Positions 37,247 through 45,536 of a DNA stretch of 64,000 nt are shown one piece after another. The stretch's first letter is position 1. Each line of letters opens with the position of its first letter. This DNA is from Reyranella massiliensis 521 (lineage in GTDB: Bacteria > Pseudomonadota > Alphaproteobacteria > Reyranellales > Reyranellaceae): assembly GCF_000312425.1 (NCBI RefSeq), contig NZ_HE997181.1:3136729-3200728 (forward strand). Reading direction: 5' to 3'. The translations under genes were made by a program, and so were the position numbers. The notes under the pieces were generated by a model. It was not told the origin of the DNA. It searched no databases and saw only the letters and a list, made by a program, of their open reading frames with translations.

Positions 37247-38662
37247 ATGGCGTTTACGATGACGCGTCACAAACGCGCCCACCGCTGGCGAACCGTCCGC
37301 AGCTTTCTGGTAGCAACCCTCGCACTTTCCGCTGCTAGTGCAGTAGACGCCACCGGGGCGATGGCCCAGGTGAAGGCCCCGCAAAAGAAACAGCTCAAGC
37401 CGGCGCCCCAGCGGTCTGTGGCTCCCGCCCCCAGCGAAGACGTCCGGTCCTTCTCGGTAGCGGCCGAGGGCTCGGTCGCTCAACAACTTCTCACCCTCCA
37501 GGTCGACCCGGCCGATGCCGAAGCGGCCGCCACGGCCGTCAACAAGGCGCTGAGCACGCCGGAGGTGAAGGCTGCCTCGTCTGGCCGTGCCGTGCTGGAG
37601 GCCCAGGGAGCCGGCCAGCCCAAGCGGCTTGTGTCGCTTCAGCTCTATTCCAACACCTCGCTCGCCGTCGAACTCGCGCGCGGCACCGATGGCAGCTTCG
37701 GCTACAAGCTCGCCCCCAATGCCACCAGGGATGACGACGAGCGTGTTTCGAGCGTCCCCAGCACGGCTGCGGCCGCGCTCCCCGCGGGTCCCGGCGCCCG
37801 CTCGCTGGTCGCGGATTCGATCAAGACGGTCAAGGCCAGCCCGACCACCCTCGCGGGCGTGCTTGCCCCTTCCGGCGCCGCCCCGGCATCGGTCAGGGAA
37901 CTCACGCAGGCCCTGGCCGGCTTCACGTCGGCATCGGCCAAGATCGACATCGTGCAGGGCCGCACGGTCGACGGCGCGCCGCGCGTGCTCGTAGCAAGTC
38001 TGAACGACGGCAAGACCCGTCAGTCCTTCTGGTGGTTTGCCCCTCCCAATCAGCCCGAGGGCTGGTTTGACGATCAGGGCAAGCGTCTGGGCGGCACGGC
38101 GCTCACCGATCCGCGGCCGGGCGCCCGCATGTCGTCGCCCTTCGGTACACGCTACTACTATGGCCGCAAGAGCGGCAGCGGCTTCCATAACGGCATCGAC
38201 TACGAAGGCAAGGTCGGCGAGCCGATCTATGCGGCGGCCGATGGCGTCATCAACCACCAGGGCTGGTACTTCAACTACGGGCGCACGGTGAAGATCAGCC
38301 ACGCCGAGAGCTTCGAAACGCTCTACGCCCACATGTCGCGCTTCGCCGACGGCATGGGCCCCGGCACCCGCGTCCGCAAGGGCGACCTGATCGGCTATGT
38401 CGGTTCGACCGGCCGGTCGACTGGCCCGCACCTGCACTTCTCGGTCATCGTGAACGGCCAGTTCGTCAATCCCCAGCCCTATGTCTCCGAAAATGGCGGC
38501 CACGGCGCCCTGGCCGGCGAGTCGCTGGTCGCCTACCGGCAATGGCAGGGCGAGGTGAAGCGCGCTGCCGACAAGGGCCGCAAGGGGGGCTTCTTCGGCC
38601 GGGCGGACAACGACGCCTGGTCGACCAATCCCTTCGCCTCGAACGCGGCGGACCGCCTCTAA
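37247..38662 (+). CDS. M23 family metallopeptidase (LytM/peptidoglycan endopeptidase)
   Basis: A 471-residue exported protein. The N-terminus has a basic stretch, a hydrophobic segment and an AMA-Q cleavage-like site near residue 40. The M23 domain spans about residues 285-410 with zinc ligands H314 and D318 (HNGIDYEG) and H397 in the HLHF motif (H395, H397), so it should be catalytic. Such enzymes cut peptidoglycan cross-bridges during growth and division. The region between signal and domain is low-complexity, with a predicted stalk. Upstream CtrA box suggests cell-cycle control. AGAACGGGAGAGG ribosome-binding region precedes the start. Confidence 0.92.
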   Translation: MAFTMTRHKRAHRWRTVRSFLVATLALSAASAVDATGAMAQVKAPQKKQLKPAPQRSVAPAPSEDVRSFSVAAEGSVAQQLLTLQVDPADAEAAATAVNKALSTPEVKAASSGRAVLEAQGAGQPKRLVSLQLYSNTSLAVELARGTDGSFGYKLAPNATRDDDERVSSVPSTAAAALPAGPGARSLVADSIKTVKASPTTLAGVLAPSGAAPASVRELTQALAGFTSASAKIDIVQGRTVDGAPRVLVASLNDGKTRQSFWWFAPPNQPEGWFDDQGKRLGGTALTDPRPGARMSSPFGTRYYYGRKSGSGFHNGIDYEGKVGEPIYAAADGVINHQGWYFNYGRTVKISHAESFETLYAHMSRFADGMGPGTRVRKGDLIGYVGSTGRSTGPHLHFSVIVNGQFVNPQPYVSENGGHGALAGESLVAYRQWQGEVKRAADKGRKGGFFGRADNDAWSTNPFASNAADRL

Positions 38663-38790
38663 ACCGCCACAGTCGGACGTGCGCCGCCGTTGCGCGTGCG
38701 CATTGGTTCGCCTAGGAATTGCGCATCGCGCCTGAACGGCCACGCAAGGTGGCCGACGGACGCCAGAGGCAACCACGAGGGAACGAAACA

Positions 38791-39816
38791 ATGCTGAAGA
38801 AGTATATGGCCGCCGGCGCGATCGCCGTCGGGCTGGTCGGTGTCGCCGGAACGGCGCAAGCCGGTAAGGATCTCGATGCCGTCAAGGCGCGCGGCCAGCT
38901 CATCTGTGGCGTCAGCACCGGCGTCGCAGGCTTTGCGTCGGCCGACAGCCAGGGCAAGTGGACAGGTATCGACGTCGATGTCTGCCGCGCCGTGTCGGCC
39001 GCGATCTTCGGTGATTCCGAGAAGGTGAAGTACGTGCCGACCACCGCCCAGCAGCGCTTCACGGCCCTGCAGTCGGGTGAGGTCGACCTGCTCGCCCGCA
39101 CCACGACCTACACGCTGACCCGCGATACCGCGCTCGGCTTCGACTTCACCGGCGTCAACTACTACGACGGCCAGGGCTTCATGGTGAACAAGAAGCTCGG
39201 CGTGAAGAGCGCCAAGGAACTGAACGGTGCGACGGTTTGCGTGCAGCCCGGCACCACCACCGAATTGAATCTCGCCGACTACTTCCGCACCAACAAGATG
39301 ACCTTCAAGCCGGTCGTCATCGAGAAGATCGAAGAAGTCCGTGCGGCCTTCTTCGCCGGCCGCTGCGACGTGTTCACCACGGACGCCTCGGGCCTCTATG
39401 CGACCCGTGCTGCCAACGCTCCGACGCCGGATGACTACATCATCCTGCCGGAGATCATCTCCAAGGAGCCGCTGGGCCCCGTCGTGCGCCACGGCGACAA
39501 CCAATTCGCCGATATCGTGCGCTGGGCCCTCTACGCCATGATCGAGGCCGAGGAATACGGCATCACGTCCAAGAACGTCGACGAGATGCTGAAGTCCGAG
39601 AACCCCAGCATCAAGCGCATCCTCGGCGTCACGCCGGGCATGGGCAAGGCGCTCGGCGTCGACGAGAAGTGGGTCTACAACATCGTCAAGCAGGTCGGAA
39701 ACTACGGCGAAAGCTTCGACCGCAACGTCGGCATGGGCTCGCCGCTCAAGATCGCCCGCGGCCAGAACGCGCTGTGGACCCAGGGTGGCCTGCAGTACGC
39801 CCCGCCGATCCGCTAA
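38791..39816 (+). CDS. aapJ: General L-amino acid ABC transporter substrate-binding protein, copy 1
   Basis: A 341-residue periplasmic protein of SBP family 3. Signal peptide ends in GTAQA-GKDLD (about residue 24). Landmarks are VDVCRAVSAAIFGD, GEVDLLARTTTYTLTRDTAL and PGTTTELNLADYFRTN, all typical of AapJ/BztA. It retains the Arg in the LARTTT ligand-loop, like canonical members. The ATG at 38791 is chosen from an upstream longer frame because the signal peptide begins there. It feeds the Q/M/P transporter encoded downstream. Confidence 0.93.
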   Translation: MLKKYMAAGAIAVGLVGVAGTAQAGKDLDAVKARGQLICGVSTGVAGFASADSQGKWTGIDVDVCRAVSAAIFGDSEKVKYVPTTAQQRFTALQSGEVDLLARTTTYTLTRDTALGFDFTGVNYYDGQGFMVNKKLGVKSAKELNGATVCVQPGTTTELNLADYFRTNKMTFKPVVIEKIEEVRAAFFAGRCDVFTTDASGLYATRAANAPTPDDYIILPEIISKEPLGPVVRHGDNQFADIVRWALYAMIEAEEYGITSKNVDEMLKSENPSIKRILGVTPGMGKALGVDEKWVYNIVKQVGNYGESFDRNVGMGSPLKIARGQNALWTQGGLQYAPPIR

Positions 39817-39840
39817 GACACACGCGACATCCTCACGACG

Positions 39841-39868
39841 AACCGCCGCCCGAAAGGGCGGCGGTTTT
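39841..39868 (+). terminator. Terminator after binding-protein copy 1
   Basis: Perfect 11-bp stem aaccgccgccc/gggcggcggtt with a GAAA tetraloop and T-rich tail. It would limit read-through and allow the first binding protein to be made in excess. Confidence 0.85.
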
Positions 39869-39935
39869 CATTTGGCCTATTGCAATTATTCGATGGAAGA
39901 TCGAGAGGGACGTAGGGGAGCGAGTTGGGTGAGCA

Positions 39936-40964
39936 ATGCGTAGATTGGCTGCGTGGGTCGCCATCGGGCTGGTTGTCGCCGCGTTCGGTAGCGTACGCCT
40001 GGCCCAGGCCGGCAAGGATCTGGATAACGTCAGGATACGAGGCACTCTTGCCTGCGGGCTCGGGACCGGCCTCCCGGGCTTCGAATTCCTCGACAGCCAG
40101 GGCAACTGGCGGGGCCTTGCCGTCGATGTCTGTCGCGCCGCCGCCGTCGCCCTGTTCGGCGATATCGGCAAAGTGAAATACGTGCCGACCAATGCCCAGC
40201 ATCGGTTCACCGTGCTGCAGGCGGGCGAGGTCGACATGCTTCTGGGCAACGCCACCCAGACCCTCGTCCGCGATACCGCCCTCGGCCTCGACTTCACCGG
40301 CATCTACTACTACGGCGGCCAGGGTTTCATGGTGCCGAAGAAGATCGGCGTAAAGAGCGCCAGGGAGCTGAGCGGCGCATCGATCTGTGTCACCGCGGGC
40401 ACCACGACGGAGCTCAATCTCGCCGACTACTTCCGCACCAACAGGATGACTTTCAAGCCGGTCATCCTCGAAAAGGTCGAGGAAGTACGGGCCGCCTTCT
40501 TCGCCGGCCGCTGCGATGTCTATACCGCCGATGTCGCGAGCCTTGCCGCGACCCGTGCGACGACCGCCGCCAATCCCGAGGACTACGCCATCCTGCCGGA
40601 GATCATCTCCAAAGACCCCGCCGGCGCGATGGTGCGCCACGGCGACAATCAATTCGCCGACATTGTGCGGTGGTCGCTCTACGCCATGATCGAGGCCGAG
40701 GAGTACGGCATCACATCCGGGAACGTCGACGAAATGCTGAAGAGCGACAATCCCGCGATCAAGCGCCTGCTCGGCGTGACACCGGGCATGGGCAAGGCGC
40801 TCGGTGTCGACGAAAAGTGGGCCTACAACATCATCAAGCAGGTCGGGAACTACGGCGAGATCTTCGAGCGCAATCTCGGCTCGGGTTCACCTCTCAAGCT
40901 GGCCCGAGGCCAGAATGCGCTGTGGACACAGGGCGGCCTGCAGTACGCCCCACCCGTCCGCTGA
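39936..40964 (+). CDS. General amino acid ABC transporter substrate-binding protein, copy 2
   Basis: A 342-residue SBP family 3 protein, the most diverged of the three copies. Signal peptide ends VRLAQA-GKDLD. It keeps VDVCRAAAVALFGD and AGTTTELNLADYFRTN, but the ligand loop reads MLLGNATQTLVRDT where copy 1 has LARTTTYTLTRDT, losing the Arg that normally contacts amino-acid ligands. Likely a different specificity. It sits between two terminators, so it may have its own promoter. Confidence 0.92.
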   Translation: MRRLAAWVAIGLVVAAFGSVRLAQAGKDLDNVRIRGTLACGLGTGLPGFEFLDSQGNWRGLAVDVCRAAAVALFGDIGKVKYVPTNAQHRFTVLQAGEVDMLLGNATQTLVRDTALGLDFTGIYYYGGQGFMVPKKIGVKSARELSGASICVTAGTTTELNLADYFRTNRMTFKPVILEKVEEVRAAFFAGRCDVYTADVASLAATRATTAANPEDYAILPEIISKDPAGAMVRHGDNQFADIVRWSLYAMIEAEEYGITSGNVDEMLKSDNPAIKRLLGVTPGMGKALGVDEKWAYNIIKQVGNYGEIFERNLGSGSPLKLARGQNALWTQGGLQYAPPVR

Positions 40965-40994
40965 CGGATCCGTCCGTCCCAGGTCAACAGCAAT

Positions 40995-41020
40995 CCGCCG
41001 CCTGAAGGGGTGGCGGTTTT
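40995..41020 (+). terminator. Terminator after binding-protein copy 2
   Basis: Stem ccgccgcc/ggtggcgg (one G-U pair) with a 6-base loop and TTTTCATTT tail. Downstream sequence is shared with the terminator after copy 1, showing common ancestry. Confidence 0.75.
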
Positions 41021-41097
41021 CATTTGGCCTATTGCTTGCAAGCGTGCCGAAGCGGAGACTGGCATCAAGGGAAAGAAATAAAAGGGGGTTTCGTTCA

Positions 41098-42135
41098 ATG
41101 CAGGCTAGACTCATTGCGGCTGCCGTCGGCTTGGCTGCCATCGTCCTCGGTGCCACTGGTCCCGCCCACGCGGGCAAGGATCTCGACGCCGTCAAAGCGC
41201 GCGGCATGGTGAACTGCGGCGTGGGGACCGGCACCGCCGGCTATATGATCGCCGACAGCCAGGGCAAGTGGCGCGGCCTGTCGGTGGATGTCTGTCGTGC
41301 CGTCGCAGCTGCGATCTTCGGCGATGCCGAGAAAGTCAGGTACATCCCGCTCACCTCGCAGCAGCGCTTTACGGCCCTGCAGTCGGGCGAGGTCGACATG
41401 ACCATGGGTAACGCGACCTACACGCTGACGCGCGATACTGCGCTCGGCTTCGATTTCACCGGCGTCTACTACTATGACGGTCAAGGCTTTCTCGTGCCGA
41501 AGAAGCTCGGTGTGAAGAGCGCCAAGGAACTGAACGGCGCCACGATCTGCGTCGCGCCCGGAACCACCACCGAGCTCAACCTCGCCGACTACTTCCGCAC
41601 CAACAAGATGACCTTCAAGCCGGTCGTCATCGAGAAGGTCGACGAGATCCGGGCCGCGTTCTTCTCAGGCCGGTGCGACGTCTATACGACCGATGCCTCG
41701 AGCCTCGCCGCGACCCGGGCCGCGAACGTGCCCGCGCCACAGACGATCGACGACTACATGATCCTGCCGGAGATCATCTCCAAGGAGCCGCTGGGTCCCG
41801 TCGTGCGCCACGGCGACAATCAATTCGCCGACATCGTGCGCTGGGCCCTCTACGCCATGATCGAGGCCGAGGAATACGGCATCACGTCCAAGAACGTCGA
41901 CGAAATGCTGAAGTCCGAGAACCCCAGCATCAAGCGCATCCTCGGCGTCACGCCGGGCATGGGCAAGGCGCTCGGCGTCGACGAGAAGTGGGTCTACAAC
42001 ATCGTCAAGCAGGTCGGAAACTACGGCGAAAGCTTCGACCGCAACGTCGGCATGGGCTCGCCGCTCAAGATCGCCCGCGGCCAGAACGCGCTGTGGACCC
42101 AGGGTGGCCTGCAATACGCCCCGCCCATCCGTTAA
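41098..42135 (+). CDS. General amino acid ABC transporter substrate-binding protein, copy 3
   Basis: A 345-residue SBP family 3 protein starting at the ATG before MQARLIAAAVGLAA; signal ends PAHA-GKDLD. The ligand loop is MTMGNATYTLTRDT, like copy 2 lacking the Arg of copy 1. A 4-residue insertion (PAPQTIDDY) is seen before the shared EIISKEPLGPVVRHGDN region. From there on it is almost identical to copy 1 in DNA, indicating recent conversion. Nearest copy to the permease genes. Confidence 0.93.
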   Translation: MQARLIAAAVGLAAIVLGATGPAHAGKDLDAVKARGMVNCGVGTGTAGYMIADSQGKWRGLSVDVCRAVAAAIFGDAEKVRYIPLTSQQRFTALQSGEVDMTMGNATYTLTRDTALGFDFTGVYYYDGQGFLVPKKLGVKSAKELNGATICVAPGTTTELNLADYFRTNKMTFKPVVIEKVDEIRAAFFSGRCDVYTTDASSLAATRAANVPAPQTIDDYMILPEIISKEPLGPVVRHGDNQFADIVRWALYAMIEAEEYGITSKNVDEMLKSENPSIKRILGVTPGMGKALGVDEKWVYNIVKQVGNYGESFDRNVGMGSPLKIARGQNALWTQGGLQYAPPIR

Positions 42136-42161
42136 AAAAGGCCTGGATATCAGACCGAACG

Positions 42162-42221
42162 GCCTCGATTTGTCCCGTTGCAAGTGGGTAATTCCTACCT
42201 ACACTGCGGTCAAATCGAGGC
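42162..42221 (+). other. Long-loop inverted repeat and possible internal promoter before the permease genes
   Basis: Perfect 11-bp arms gcctcgatttg (42162-42172) and caaatcgaggc (42211-42221) enclose 38 bases. Inside the loop lie TTGCAA and TACACT with 16-base spacing, resembling -35 and -10. It could tune expression of permeases relative to binding proteins. Confidence 0.4.
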
Positions 42222-42271
42222 GAGCATGCCGAACGACGCGGGCCAACCGCGGTAGTCAGGGGGAATAGCGT

Positions 42272-43465
42272 ATGGCAGTCGAGACACTCGGCTCTGCGCC
42301 GCGACGAACCAGAGTAGCGCCGTGGAACGATCCGGTCATCCGTGGCTGGGTGTTCCAGATCGTCGTTGTCGGTCTCGTCGGGCTTCTGGCCTGGTATCTC
42401 GTCAGCAACACCATGGAAAACCTCGCGCGCCAGAAGATCGCGAGCGGTTTCCACTATCTCGAACGCGAGGCTGGCTTCGAGATCGGCGATACGATGATCG
42501 AGTATTCGCCGGCCAGCACCTACGCCCGTGCGATCTGGGTCGGCATCCTCAATACGCTGCGTGTCGCCGTCCTCGGGATCATCCTGTCGACCCTCCTCGG
42601 CACCCTGATCGGTGTCGGAAGGCTATCCCCCAACTGGTTGTTGAGCCGCATCTGCTCCTGGTACGTCGAGGCCTTCCGCAACGTGCCGCTGCTGCTCTGG
42701 CTGTTCCTGTTCTACAAGCTGATCAGCGAGGCTTTCCCCGGACCGCGCCAGGCGATCTCCATGCTGTGGAACTCGGTGTTCCTCAGCAATCGCGGCGTCT
42801 ACTTCCCTGTACCGATGGCCGACCCGATCCATAAGTGGATGGGCTTGGCGTTCCTGGTCGGCATCGCGGCTGCGTTCTTCATCAATCGCTGGGCCAAGAA
42901 GCGCCAGGCCGCAACAGGCCAGCCCTTCCCGATCATGTCGGTGACGCTCGGCGCCATCATCGGCCTTCCCTTCCTGGTTTGGCTGGCCGGCGGTGCGCCC
43001 AGCCACATGAGCTGGCCGGAGCTCAAGGGCTTCAACTTCGTGGGCGGCACCGTCATCCAGCCGGAGTTCACCGCCCTGCTGGTCGGCCTGGTGCTCTACA
43101 CCTCGGCCTTCGTCGCCGAGATCGTGCGCTCGGGCATCCTCGCCCTGCACAAGGGCCAAAGCGAAGCCGCCGCGGCCCTCGGCCTGTCGCGCGGCCAGTC
43201 CATGCGTCTGGTGCTGCTGCCGCAGGCGCTGCGCGTCATCGTGCCGCCGATGACCAGCCAGTATCTCAACATCACCAAGAACAGCTCGCTGGCCATCGCC
43301 ATCGGCTATCCCGACCTGGTCGCCTCCGTGAACGTCACGATCAACCAGACCGGCCAGGCGATCGAGAACGTCCTGATCATCATGGCGGCCTATCTCTCGG
43401 TCAGCCTGTCGATCTCGGCGTTCATGAACTGGTACAACAAACGCATCGCCCTGACGGAGCGCTGA
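42272..43465 (+). CDS. aapQ: General L-amino acid ABC transporter permease (AapQ/BztB type)
   Basis: A 397-residue inner-membrane protein with about eight helices. The N-terminal extension ([11 protein letters not shown], a helix, then [18 protein letters not shown]) is the AapQ/BztB hallmark, and the EAA loop [21 protein letters not shown] contacts the ATPase. It pairs with AapM to form the channel. A 2-base gap separates it from aapM. Confidence 0.94.
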
Positions 43466-43467
43466 GC

Positions 43468-44745
43468 ATGACCGACATGCCAGTTGGCGAACGCCAGCAA
43501 CTCGCCCCTCCCTCGGACGACTCCGGCATCCTGGGCTGGATGCGCAAGAACCTGTTTTCGAGCTGGGGCAACGGCCTCACGACGATCGTCCTGATCGTCG
43601 CCATGGTCTGGATCCTCTCCGGGTTCCTGGAGTGGGCGCTCTTCACCGCCAACTTCACGGCGACGACCGGCAGCGAATGCCGCGGCGGGGGCGCCTGCTG
43701 GGCCCTGATCCGCGAGAAGTTCCGCTACATCTTCTTCGGCTCGTTCCCGTACGAACAGCACTGGCGGCCGCTGTTTGCCGTCATCGCCATGCTCGCGATG
43801 CTGGTGCTGAGCGCCGACCGCCGCATGTGGAACTGGCGCCTGCTGGTAATCTGGGGCGTGGGCTCCTTCATCACCTTCCTGCTGATGTTCGGCCAGCTCC
43901 ACATTCCGCTGAGCCTCTTCCTCGTTGTCGCCTTGGTGGTCGGCGGGATCGGCCTCGCCATGCGCAAAGGCGTTGCGGGCGCGGCCGAGATGAACGCCTA
44001 CTGGGCCGCCGCCGCCATCGGCGCCATCGGGCTGGCTCTGCGCTTCCTTGGCATCCTGCCGGCGTGGAGCCTCGCCATCGCGCCCTTGAGCTATGTCGAG
44101 ACCAGCCTGTGGGGTGGCCTGCCTGTCACTTTGATCCTGGCGACCTACGGCCTGCTCTTTGCCTTCCCCTACGGCGTCCTGCTGGCGCTGGGCCGGCGGT
44201 CCAACCTGCCGCTGGTCAAGGGCCTGTGCGTGGGTTTCATCGAGCTGATCCGCGGCGTGCCCCTGATCAGCCTCCTGATCATGGCCTCGGTGATGCTGCC
44301 GCTGTTCCTGCCCTCGGGCACGACCATCGACAAGTTCCTGCGCGCCCAGGTCGCCGTCATCCTGTTCGCCGGCGCCTATATCGCCGAGGTCATCCGCGGC
44401 GGCCTGCAGTCGCTGCCCAAAGGCCAGTTCGAGGCCGCCGACGCGATGGGCCTCAACTATCCGCAGAAGACATTGCTGATCATCCTGCCGCAGGCGCTGC
44501 GCGTGGTGATCCCGCCGCTTATCAACACCTTCATCGGCTTCTTCAAGGACACGTCGCTGGTGCTGATCATCGGCATCTTCGACTTCCTCAACACGGCGAA
44601 CCAGGCGCTGGTCGATCCCAACTGGGCCGGCTTCCCCGGCGAGGTCTACCTGTTCGCGGCCTTCGTCTACTTCATCTTCTGTTACTCGATGTCGCGATAC
44701 AGCAAGTACCTCGAAGTCGAACTCAACAAGGGTACGCGCCGCTAG
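43468..44745 (+). CDS. aapM: General L-amino acid ABC transporter permease (AapM/BztC type)
   Basis: A 425-residue permease with about ten hydrophobic segments; start at the ATG two bases after the aapQ stop. N-terminal [19 protein letters not shown] and [20 protein letters not shown] are characteristic of AapM/BztC; the EAA loop reads [21 protein letters not shown]. Partner of AapQ in uptake of a broad range of L-amino acids. Confidence 0.94.
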
Positions 44746-44765: not shown

Positions 44766-45536
44766 ATGGCCGCAACAGCCGCGCGCGATCTGTCGTCGGT
44801 GTCCTCGGTGATCCAGCTCAAGGGCGTCAACAAGTGGTTCGGGCAGTTCCATGTCCTGACCGATATCAATCTCGACGTGAAGGAAGGCGAGAAGATCGTC
44901 ATCTGCGGACCGTCGGGCTCGGGCAAGTCGACCCTGATCCGCTGCATCAACCGTCTGGAGGAGCATCAGCAGGGCGACATCGTCGTGCACGGCGTCACGC
45001 TTTCCAACGACGTAAAGAACATCGAGGCGATCCGCCGCGAGGTCGGCATGGTGTTTCAGTCGTTCAACCTCTTCCCGCACCTCACGATCCTCGACAATCT
45101 TACCCTCGCGCCGATCTGGGTGAAGAAGATGCCGAAGAAGGACGCCGAGGAAATCGCCATGGGGCTGCTGAAGCGCGTGCGCATTCCCGAACAGGCGCTG
45201 AAGTATCCCGGCCAGCTCTCGGGCGGCCAGCAGCAGCGCGTTGCAATCGCCCGGGCGCTCTGCATGCGCCCCAAGATCATGCTTTTCGACGAGCCGACCT
45301 CGGCGCTCGATCCCGAGATGGTGAAGGAAGTGCTCGACGTGATGATCGAGCTGGCGCGCGAGGGCATGACCATGCTCTGCGTTACCCACGAGATGGGCTT
45401 CGCCCGCGCCGTCGCCGACCGTGTGATCTTCATGGATCGTGGCGAAATCGTGGAACAGAACGAGCCAGAGGAATTCTTCGCCAATCCCAGGAACGAGCGC
45501 ACCAAGCTCTTCCTCGGCCAGATCCTCCATCACTGA
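44766..45536 (+). CDS. aapP: General L-amino acid ABC transporter ATP-binding protein
   Basis: A 256-residue ATPase with Walker [10 protein letters not shown] at 48-56, signature [15 protein letters not shown], Walker [15 protein letters not shown] and the H-loop CVTHEMGFA. Closely matches GlnQ/AapP polar amino-acid ATPases. Last gene of the aap cluster, 20 bases after aapM; it powers the AapQM channel served by the three binding proteins. Confidence 0.95.

Follow-up and report, generated by a model that had tools for sequence, protein, structure and literature searches.

The genome of Reyranella massiliensis 521 carries, within a 64,000-nucleotide stretch of its single 5.79 Mb contig NZ_HE997181.1 (positions 3,136,729 to 3,200,728; hereafter the window), three tandem AapJ-type solute-binding protein genes followed by genes for AapQ, AapM and AapP. 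The three copies are named c1, c2 and c3 in array order, and codon numbers throughout are those of c3. In the last part of the gene (the tail, codon 222 to the stop), and in that segment only, paralogues are closer to one another than to their orthologues, which is the pattern of domain-limited gene conversion. Gene conversion between c1 and c3 is almost certain, and very probably it has recurred within the genus without being universal. The best explanation, to which a probability of roughly 0.7 is assigned, is that the tails of these paralogues are overwritten by recurrent conversion, with the front of the gene (codons 26-221) being kept apart by ligand choice.

Within the array, c1 and c3 differ at 20.0% of bases over codons 26-221, as against 25.0% for c1/c2 and 24.9% for c2/c3, whereas over codons 222-345 the corresponding figures are 1.9% (seven sites), 15.1% and 14.8%. 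A recount reproduced exactly the outer coordinates given in a preliminary description of the array (38791-42135), as well as its estimate of about six differing sites between c1 and c3 in the last 336 bases; there are six, all synonymous, at c1 positions 39501, 39513, 39585, 39795, 39807 and 39813. The wide divergence that it reported for c2 and for the N-terminal halves is borne out by the same distances, and divergence is far from uniform across the genes. The recombination analysis that it had proposed places the best single c1/c3 breakpoint at codon 219 (max-chi-square) and finds a longest run of agreement of 63 of the 384 polymorphic sites (codons 271-338), where in shuffled data the longest run averages 13.9 sites and reaches 30 at the 99.9th percentile; no shuffle reached the observed values (0/20,000 and 0/2,000). 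A second candidate tract at codons 162-180, where 57 bases are identical in the window, was rejected, as no significant same-genome c1-c3 excess was found there. The argument first offered for conversion, that a simple duplication history should leave neighbours most similar, is unsound: the order of copies along an array says little about the order in which they branched, and in the front half, too, c1 is closer to c3 than either is to c2.

The contrast between front and tail by itself proves little, because ordinary conservation of the tail also shows in the pairs that involve c2: the tail is the more conserved part in all three pairs, with a tail/front ratio of about 0.6 for the c2 pairs, although the c1/c3 tail difference lies far below theirs. 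Tail conversion can be settled only with orthologues, and the comparison was therefore extended across the genus. A genome scan found 178 relatives, of which the best 80 were kept, giving 78 loci; many of the best-matching named relatives are Reyranella. A first extraction yielded 134 AapJ-type genes from the 78 public loci and the window genome, partial, interrupted and stop-less genes having been dropped, and a second yielded 26 further genes, 13 of them repeats at zero distance. Loci are labelled L and genomes G, with G000 the window genome and WIN its genes. A nearest-relative test on all 134 genes was unselected, 120 of them belonging to the 38 groups that contain two or more copies (a group being a genome, or a single array where only one locus was available), whereas a 10-genome set and a 16-genome set of 42 rows were chosen for clear c1-side and c3-side genes.

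In the 42-row front tree, c1 (support 90/92), c3 (79/59) and a dispersed copy found elsewhere in the genome (100/99) form three groups, and two label changes, the minimum, suffice to explain them; the tail tree has 15 label changes, and its genes mix by genome. For the tail, both c1 as one clade and c3 as one clade are rejected by the approximately unbiased (AU) test (log-likelihood differences of 298 and 289, p 4e-43 and 1e-5). With third codon positions alone, the tail again rejects a c1 clade (p 3e-5) and a c3 clade (p 1e-9), and the front rejects neither (p 0.15 and 0.11). The front part supports the view that c1 and c3 are probably paralogues older than the compared species.

Distances give the same result. 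In the 10-genome set, the third-position distance between c1 and c3 in the front is 31.4 within genomes and 31.0 between genomes (p 0.70), whereas in the tail it is 13.9 within and 18.7 between, a difference reached in none of 5,000 shuffles. Codon usage common to the genes of one genome does not account for this, since the contrast between same-genome and different-genome distances appears in the tail alone. In the unselected set, the nearest relative lies in the same genome for the tails of 15 of the 120 genes, drawn from 10 of the 38 genomes, and for the front of a single gene; with shuffled labels the count averages 2.0 for either part and peaks at 10 (tail) and 9 (front).

Could the tail simply be under stronger purifying selection than the front, on protein or on codons, with no conversion at all? 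Tail conservation in the 18 c2 pairs of nine three-gene arrays like that of the window (tail/front ratio 0.52-0.72) and the low third-position change around codons 276-305 in all comparisons are in keeping with such constraint. Constraint cannot, however, bring c1 closer to the c3 of its own genome than to its orthologue. The c1-c3 ratios of the same nine arrays, 0.09-0.51, all lie below those of the c2 pairs, and same-genome clustering of tails is seen at third positions, contrary to pure constraint, which is accordingly a very improbable account of the data. The amino-acid pattern likewise separates the two parts of the protein. All eight positions that distinguish c1 from c3 in 16 genomes (each at least 87.5% constant), and all 15 that do so in 10 genomes (at least 90% constant), lie in codons 26-221. 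At sites 274, 277 and 341 the residue varies among genomes, and c1 equals c3 within the genome in 10 of 10; thus the tail does change, and changes in step within each genome. Among sites variable in both lineages, c1 and c3 agree on average in 7.9 of 10 genomes in the tail (10 sites) and in 3.0 of 10 in the front (11 sites).

Same-genome tail pairs are starred in the 42-row tree for L121, L122, L059, L048 and L060; that tree does not resolve the window pair, which receives a star when third positions alone are used. L122 comes from the single-contig genome G051, where the two copies differ by 14.3% in the front and 5.4% in the tail, are each other's nearest in the tail, and have their next genome at 11.3%; in L121, from the single-contig genome G048, the figures are 16.2% and 7.0%. 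Together, the starred pairs and the single-contig cases point to recurrent conversion in separate lineages. They bear as well on the possibility of an assembly artefact joining the copies: near-identical tandem segments can misassemble, and many of the relatives are metagenome assemblies, but the window belongs to a single contig, its two tails differ at seven sites and are separated by c2, and the same pattern recurs in G051 and G048, so that the chance of such an artefact is next to negligible. Replacement of one tail by a recent partial duplication or by unequal crossing-over is improbable, if less remote. Crossing-over between outer copies would yield two-gene arrays, and these exist (L058, L060, L061 and L072); c2, however, still stands between the homogenised copies in the window and in eight other three-gene arrays. 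As to direction, the tail of WIN_3 differs from that of L040_3 by 2.4% and the tail of WIN_1 from that of L040_1 by 4.8%, a hint from which c3 is tentatively taken as the donor and c1 as the recipient in the window genome.

Several observations weigh against the reading of recurrent conversion bounded by ligand choice. The front grouping of c3 is weakly supported (79/59), c1 and c3 are not recovered as front groups from third positions alone, and a rapid tree built from the fronts of the full 134-gene set splits the c1 genes into two groups. In G048, the tail of one copy is slightly nearer to another genome. Six arrays (L052, L053, L057, L076, L081 and L108) have tail/front ratios of 0.67-1.13, at or above about the level of the c2 pairs, and these unhomogenised arrays include the isolates R. 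soli (L053) and E. aerosaccus (L076); the isolate R. aquatilis (L046) has a moderate ratio of 0.51, and the strong named cases L040, L048, L059 and L060 are metagenome assemblies. The selected sets are not unbiased, since genomes with clear c1 and c3 genes were picked and sister species are not independent, and the arrays left out of them, among others L049, L050, L052-L057, L062, L065, L066, L069, L072, L073, L076, L081, L084 and L108, are mostly less homogenised. The p values of the 72 comparisons of same-genome and different-genome distances are uncorrected, and some controls fall below 0.05: c1-c2 third positions are closer within than between genomes in codons 222-255 (26.8 vs 30.7, p 0.007), with a further same-genome excess in codons 162-181 (p 0.034), c2-orphan shows one in the tail at first and second positions (13.1 vs 13.8, p 0.004), and both c2-orphan and c1-orphan show one in the front at third positions (p 0.033 each). 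Finally, c2 and two of the orphan genes described below (L005 and L006) are not clearly homogenised and presumably serve the same channel; homogenisation would therefore not be needed for docking. The preliminary description's claim of conversion between the outer copies emerges strongly supported, on the basis of a genus-wide comparison that lay beyond its view.

The effects on c2 itself are small. The c2 tails of the clade formed by the window, L040, L041 and L064 group near the c1/c3 tails (support 92), and those of other species group elsewhere, which suggests an older conversion into c2 of that clade. L084 has ratios of 0.60-0.99, though two of its genes have their nearest tails in the same genome. 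Other variations in array structure were observed: a strongly diverged AapJ-type gene is the last member of four arrays (L050_5, L053_4, L062_4 and L069_2), and the second array gene of L085 (7185-8140) is seemingly interrupted, a 65% match to residues 27-155 overlapping a 92% match to residues 130-345. Tandem AapJ-type genes before AapQMP-like genes also occur in other families of the class (L137, L138, L139 and L140), with a near-identical patch around codons 286-325 in L139. Homogenisation is not claimed for these arrays or for that of another genus of the same family (L141), as their third-position tail/front ratios (0.53-1.09, seven pairs) compare with genus baselines of 0.63 for c1-c2 and 0.67 for c3-c2.

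The window genome holds six AapJ-type genes at E<=1e-100, three of them orphans, and a single AapQ at E<=1e-60; the 14 kb surrounding each orphan contain no AapQ, AapM or AapP match at 1e-5. There are thus more binding-protein genes than permease sets, as in a system with a shared translocator, and the suggestion of three specificities on one channel is plausible because only one close AapQ match is present. The orphan at 4.18 Mb, about 1 Mb away, differs from c1 at 3 of 120 bases over codons 266-305, compared with 10 of 120 for each of its own orthologues in L089 and L090; the other two orphans lack the c1/c3 tail. Across nine genomes, codons 256-305 show a same-genome excess at third positions both for orphan-c3 (9.8 vs 15.5, 0/5,000 shuffles) and for orphan-c1 (10.2 vs 14.0, p 0.002). 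In the AU test a single orphan clade is not rejected, whether with the 42-row tail tree (p 0.126), with codons 240-305 (p 0.424) or with third positions (p 0.258). The orphan at 4.18 Mb may well take part in conversion. At L118:6307-8007 (G000) this orphan lies shortly downstream of a glutathione transferase gene, both genes being on one strand, and the nearest homologue of known structure, 4z9n (below), was crystallised with glutathione. The neighbour was considered and set aside as a clue to the ligand, since it is found beside the orphan in only 3 of the 26 distinct unlinked loci examined (the window genome, L089 and L090), with flank lengths that vary.

A structure model of c3 (mean predicted local distance difference test score 85, predicted template modelling score 0.84) indicates what the tail would comprise. 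The break at 219-222 precedes a strand at 232-237, read as the second hinge strand, which is followed by a helix at 241-259 and a helical extension at 267-334. In the model the homogenised part thus comprises the chain's re-entry into lobe 1, the final helix of that lobe and the helical C-terminal extension, with most of lobe 1 and lobe 2 in the diverged part, so that the halves are not lobes. Thirty distinct solved sequences match c3 at 1e-5, of which 29 stop at residue 272 or earlier and only 4z9n, a Brucella ovis binding protein solved with glutathione bound, reaches the end. Its residues 8-328 align to c3 25-345, the C-terminal extension included, at 57% identity, with a template modelling score of 0.86 by query length (Foldseek). 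The segments around 48-52, 104-112, 155-158 and 199, which we take to be ligand motifs, all lie in the front and differ between copies. The preliminary description assigned the permease-contact side to the conserved half and the ligand pocket to the diverged half, which is only partly right: the presumed pocket motifs do fall in the diverged part, whereas the halves themselves do not correspond to protein lobes in the model, and a permease-contact side in the conserved half would be hypothetical.

How, then, might the two parts have come to differ? The last 124 or so codons of c1 and c3 have been overwritten repeatedly, in separate lineages, by conversion between copies, and the front of about 195 mature codons, with its presumed ligand-contact motifs, has stayed unhomogenised. 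Conversions in the front would be weeded out, as they would erase the difference in ligand choice, whereas conversion of the tail would be harmless or even useful if the tail does the same work in each copy. That conversion is bounded by selection for the ligand difference is a reasonably good bet, a little above even. The work common to the tails could be docking to the AapQM permease that the copies would share, and the subunits of this permease are likewise unusually long (397 and 425 residues, as against 212-238 in the matched polar amino-acid permease NCBIfam models), but the tail is less likely than not to be a docking module. The fuller proposal is more doubtful again: that the C-terminal 50-120 or so residues are a docking module, synchronised per genome by conversion among array and orphan copies, which fits several binding proteins with different ligands to one co-evolving AapQM and would be the bacterial equivalent of the TLR1/TLR6 pair described below. 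Conversion largely skips c2, most simply because c2 would be too diverged to pair well.

This last point is shared by a neutral account, in which the tail is the only stretch alike enough to recombine and neither selection nor docking is needed. The diverged c2 and the orphans L005 and L006 are largely spared, as that account predicts, and conserved tail residues would hold identity high, feeding back on pairing. The fronts of c1 and c3 must once have been alike too, however, and some factor allowed them to diverge beyond the range of conversion; several of the fixed front differences lie in the presumed ligand-motif segments. Similarity-driven conversion of this kind is a credible possibility at rather less than even odds, and it differs from recurrent conversion bounded by ligand choice only in why the front drifted out of reach.

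Features of the array and the adjoining transporter genes, in window coordinates.
Feature	Position	Strand	Basis
c1, AapJ-type solute-binding protein, 341 aa	38791..39816	+	Open reading frame; SBP_bac_3 4.8e-18
c1 tail (codon 222 to stop), homogenised with c3	39442..39816	+	7 differences in 124 codons; max-chi-square break at codon 219
GC-rich hairpin with T-rich tail, terminator-like, c1-c2 gap	39840..39877	+	Fold; shared 18-base tail
c2, AapJ-type solute-binding protein, 342 aa; diverged, largely unhomogenised recently	39936..40964	+	Open reading frame; SBP_bac_3; distances
Terminator-like hairpin with T-rich tail, c2-c3 gap	40995..41029	+	Terminator scan; shared 18-base tail
c3, AapJ-type solute-binding protein, 345 aa, adjoining the permease genes	41098..42135	+	Open reading frame; SBP_bac_3; structure model
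c3 tail (codon 222 to stop), homogenised with c1	41761..42135	+	Distances; breakpoint; trees
AapQ-type permease, 397 aa	42272..43465	+	BPD_transp_1 4e-17; sole genome match at E<=1e-60
AapM-type permease, 425 aa from ATG	43468..44745	+	BPD_transp_1 2.4e-21
AapP-type ATPase, 256 aa from ATG	44766..45536	+	ABC_tran 3.1e-38; best NCBIfam match GlnQ 3.4e-97, below cut-off

The locus is predicted to be an AapJQMP-type amino-acid importer with three tandem binding-protein copies for one permease/ATPase set. The gene order J-Q-M-P, with a binding protein, two long permeases and one ATPase, is that of AapJQMP, which we take to be a general amino-acid importer and after which the window genes are presumptively named. 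SBP_bac_3 scores c1, c2 and c3 at 65.6, 56.7 and 62.6 bits (gathering score 26.4). No AapJ, AapQ or AapM model appears among the NCBIfam matches listed, and the naming rests on domain, length and gene order because no listed library model bore those names. The AapM reference used in searches started one codon before its ATG, and the AapP reference one codon after.

Between the binding-protein genes, the first hairpin lies in a 74-nucleotide stretch that folds at -30.9 kcal/mol (z -4.56) and is absent from the five sites listed by a simple terminator scan; the second, after c2, has an unremarkable fold z of -1.35. An 18-base sequence is common to both and occurs exactly nowhere else in the genome. 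Read-through past the hairpins after c1 and c2 would give more binding protein than permease. An inverted repeat with 11-base arms (42162-42221) is present in the 137-nucleotide leader between c3 and aapQ, which folds with z -2.21 and has no Rfam match. Over 38500-42400, neither an Rfam family match nor a sigma-70-like promoter was found.

In bacteria, binding proteins can outnumber permeases, and the features that fit a binding protein to its permease are, to our knowledge, poorly mapped. Here a segment is kept common as the ligand-contact parts diverge, and it is marked out by the sequence record in several natural replicates. Should the segment prove to be a docking surface, it would provide a compact map open to testing, along with a rule by which orphan binding proteins could be matched to permeases; otherwise it is a clear example, in bacteria, of conversion whose limits are set by function. 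Homogenised tails may be one way in which nature keeps several binding proteins compatible with a single channel.

HisJ and ArgT are supposed to share HisQMP. Enterobacterial ArtJ and ArtI are supposed to share ArtQMP (PMC6640053, in its accessible text). Each of these systems pairs two amino-acid binding proteins with a membrane complex, compared with three in the window array. In Pseudomonas aeruginosa, DppA1-5 are several binding proteins with distinct substrate profiles that serve one dipeptide permease, a likeness in number, although the transporter imports peptides (PMC12728205, accessible text). AapJQMP of Rhizobium leguminosarum is of the same type as the transporter of the window, with one AapJ named for the complex; there the orphan BraC3 uses the Bra membrane complex of another operon, and thus serves Bra and not Aap, and nothing on tail homogenisation was found in the accessible text of that report (PMC2978685). 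The Brucella ovis protein 4z9n, with glutathione bound, is a homologue of c3 over its whole length, C-terminal extension included. No report of gene conversion in AapJ or in tandem binding proteins of ATP-binding cassette (ABC) transporters was found in the open literature library that was searched, among the titles and abstract openings of the matches listed, which for several searches were a small part of all matches. The closest analogue found, as far as the accessible text of its description goes, is the TLR1/TLR6 pair of mammals, tandem paralogues whose C-terminal region has been homogenised by independent conversions and whose N-terminal parts follow orthology, for which the authors invoke shared partners (Kruithof 2007, PMC2077338). 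TLR1 and TLR6 are animal immune receptors, and all nine species are affected, whereas the AapJ-type proteins are bacterial ABC binding proteins, several lineages are unaffected and a dispersed copy is perhaps involved; common to both are tandem paralogues with orthologous N-terminal parts and a homogenised C-terminal part.

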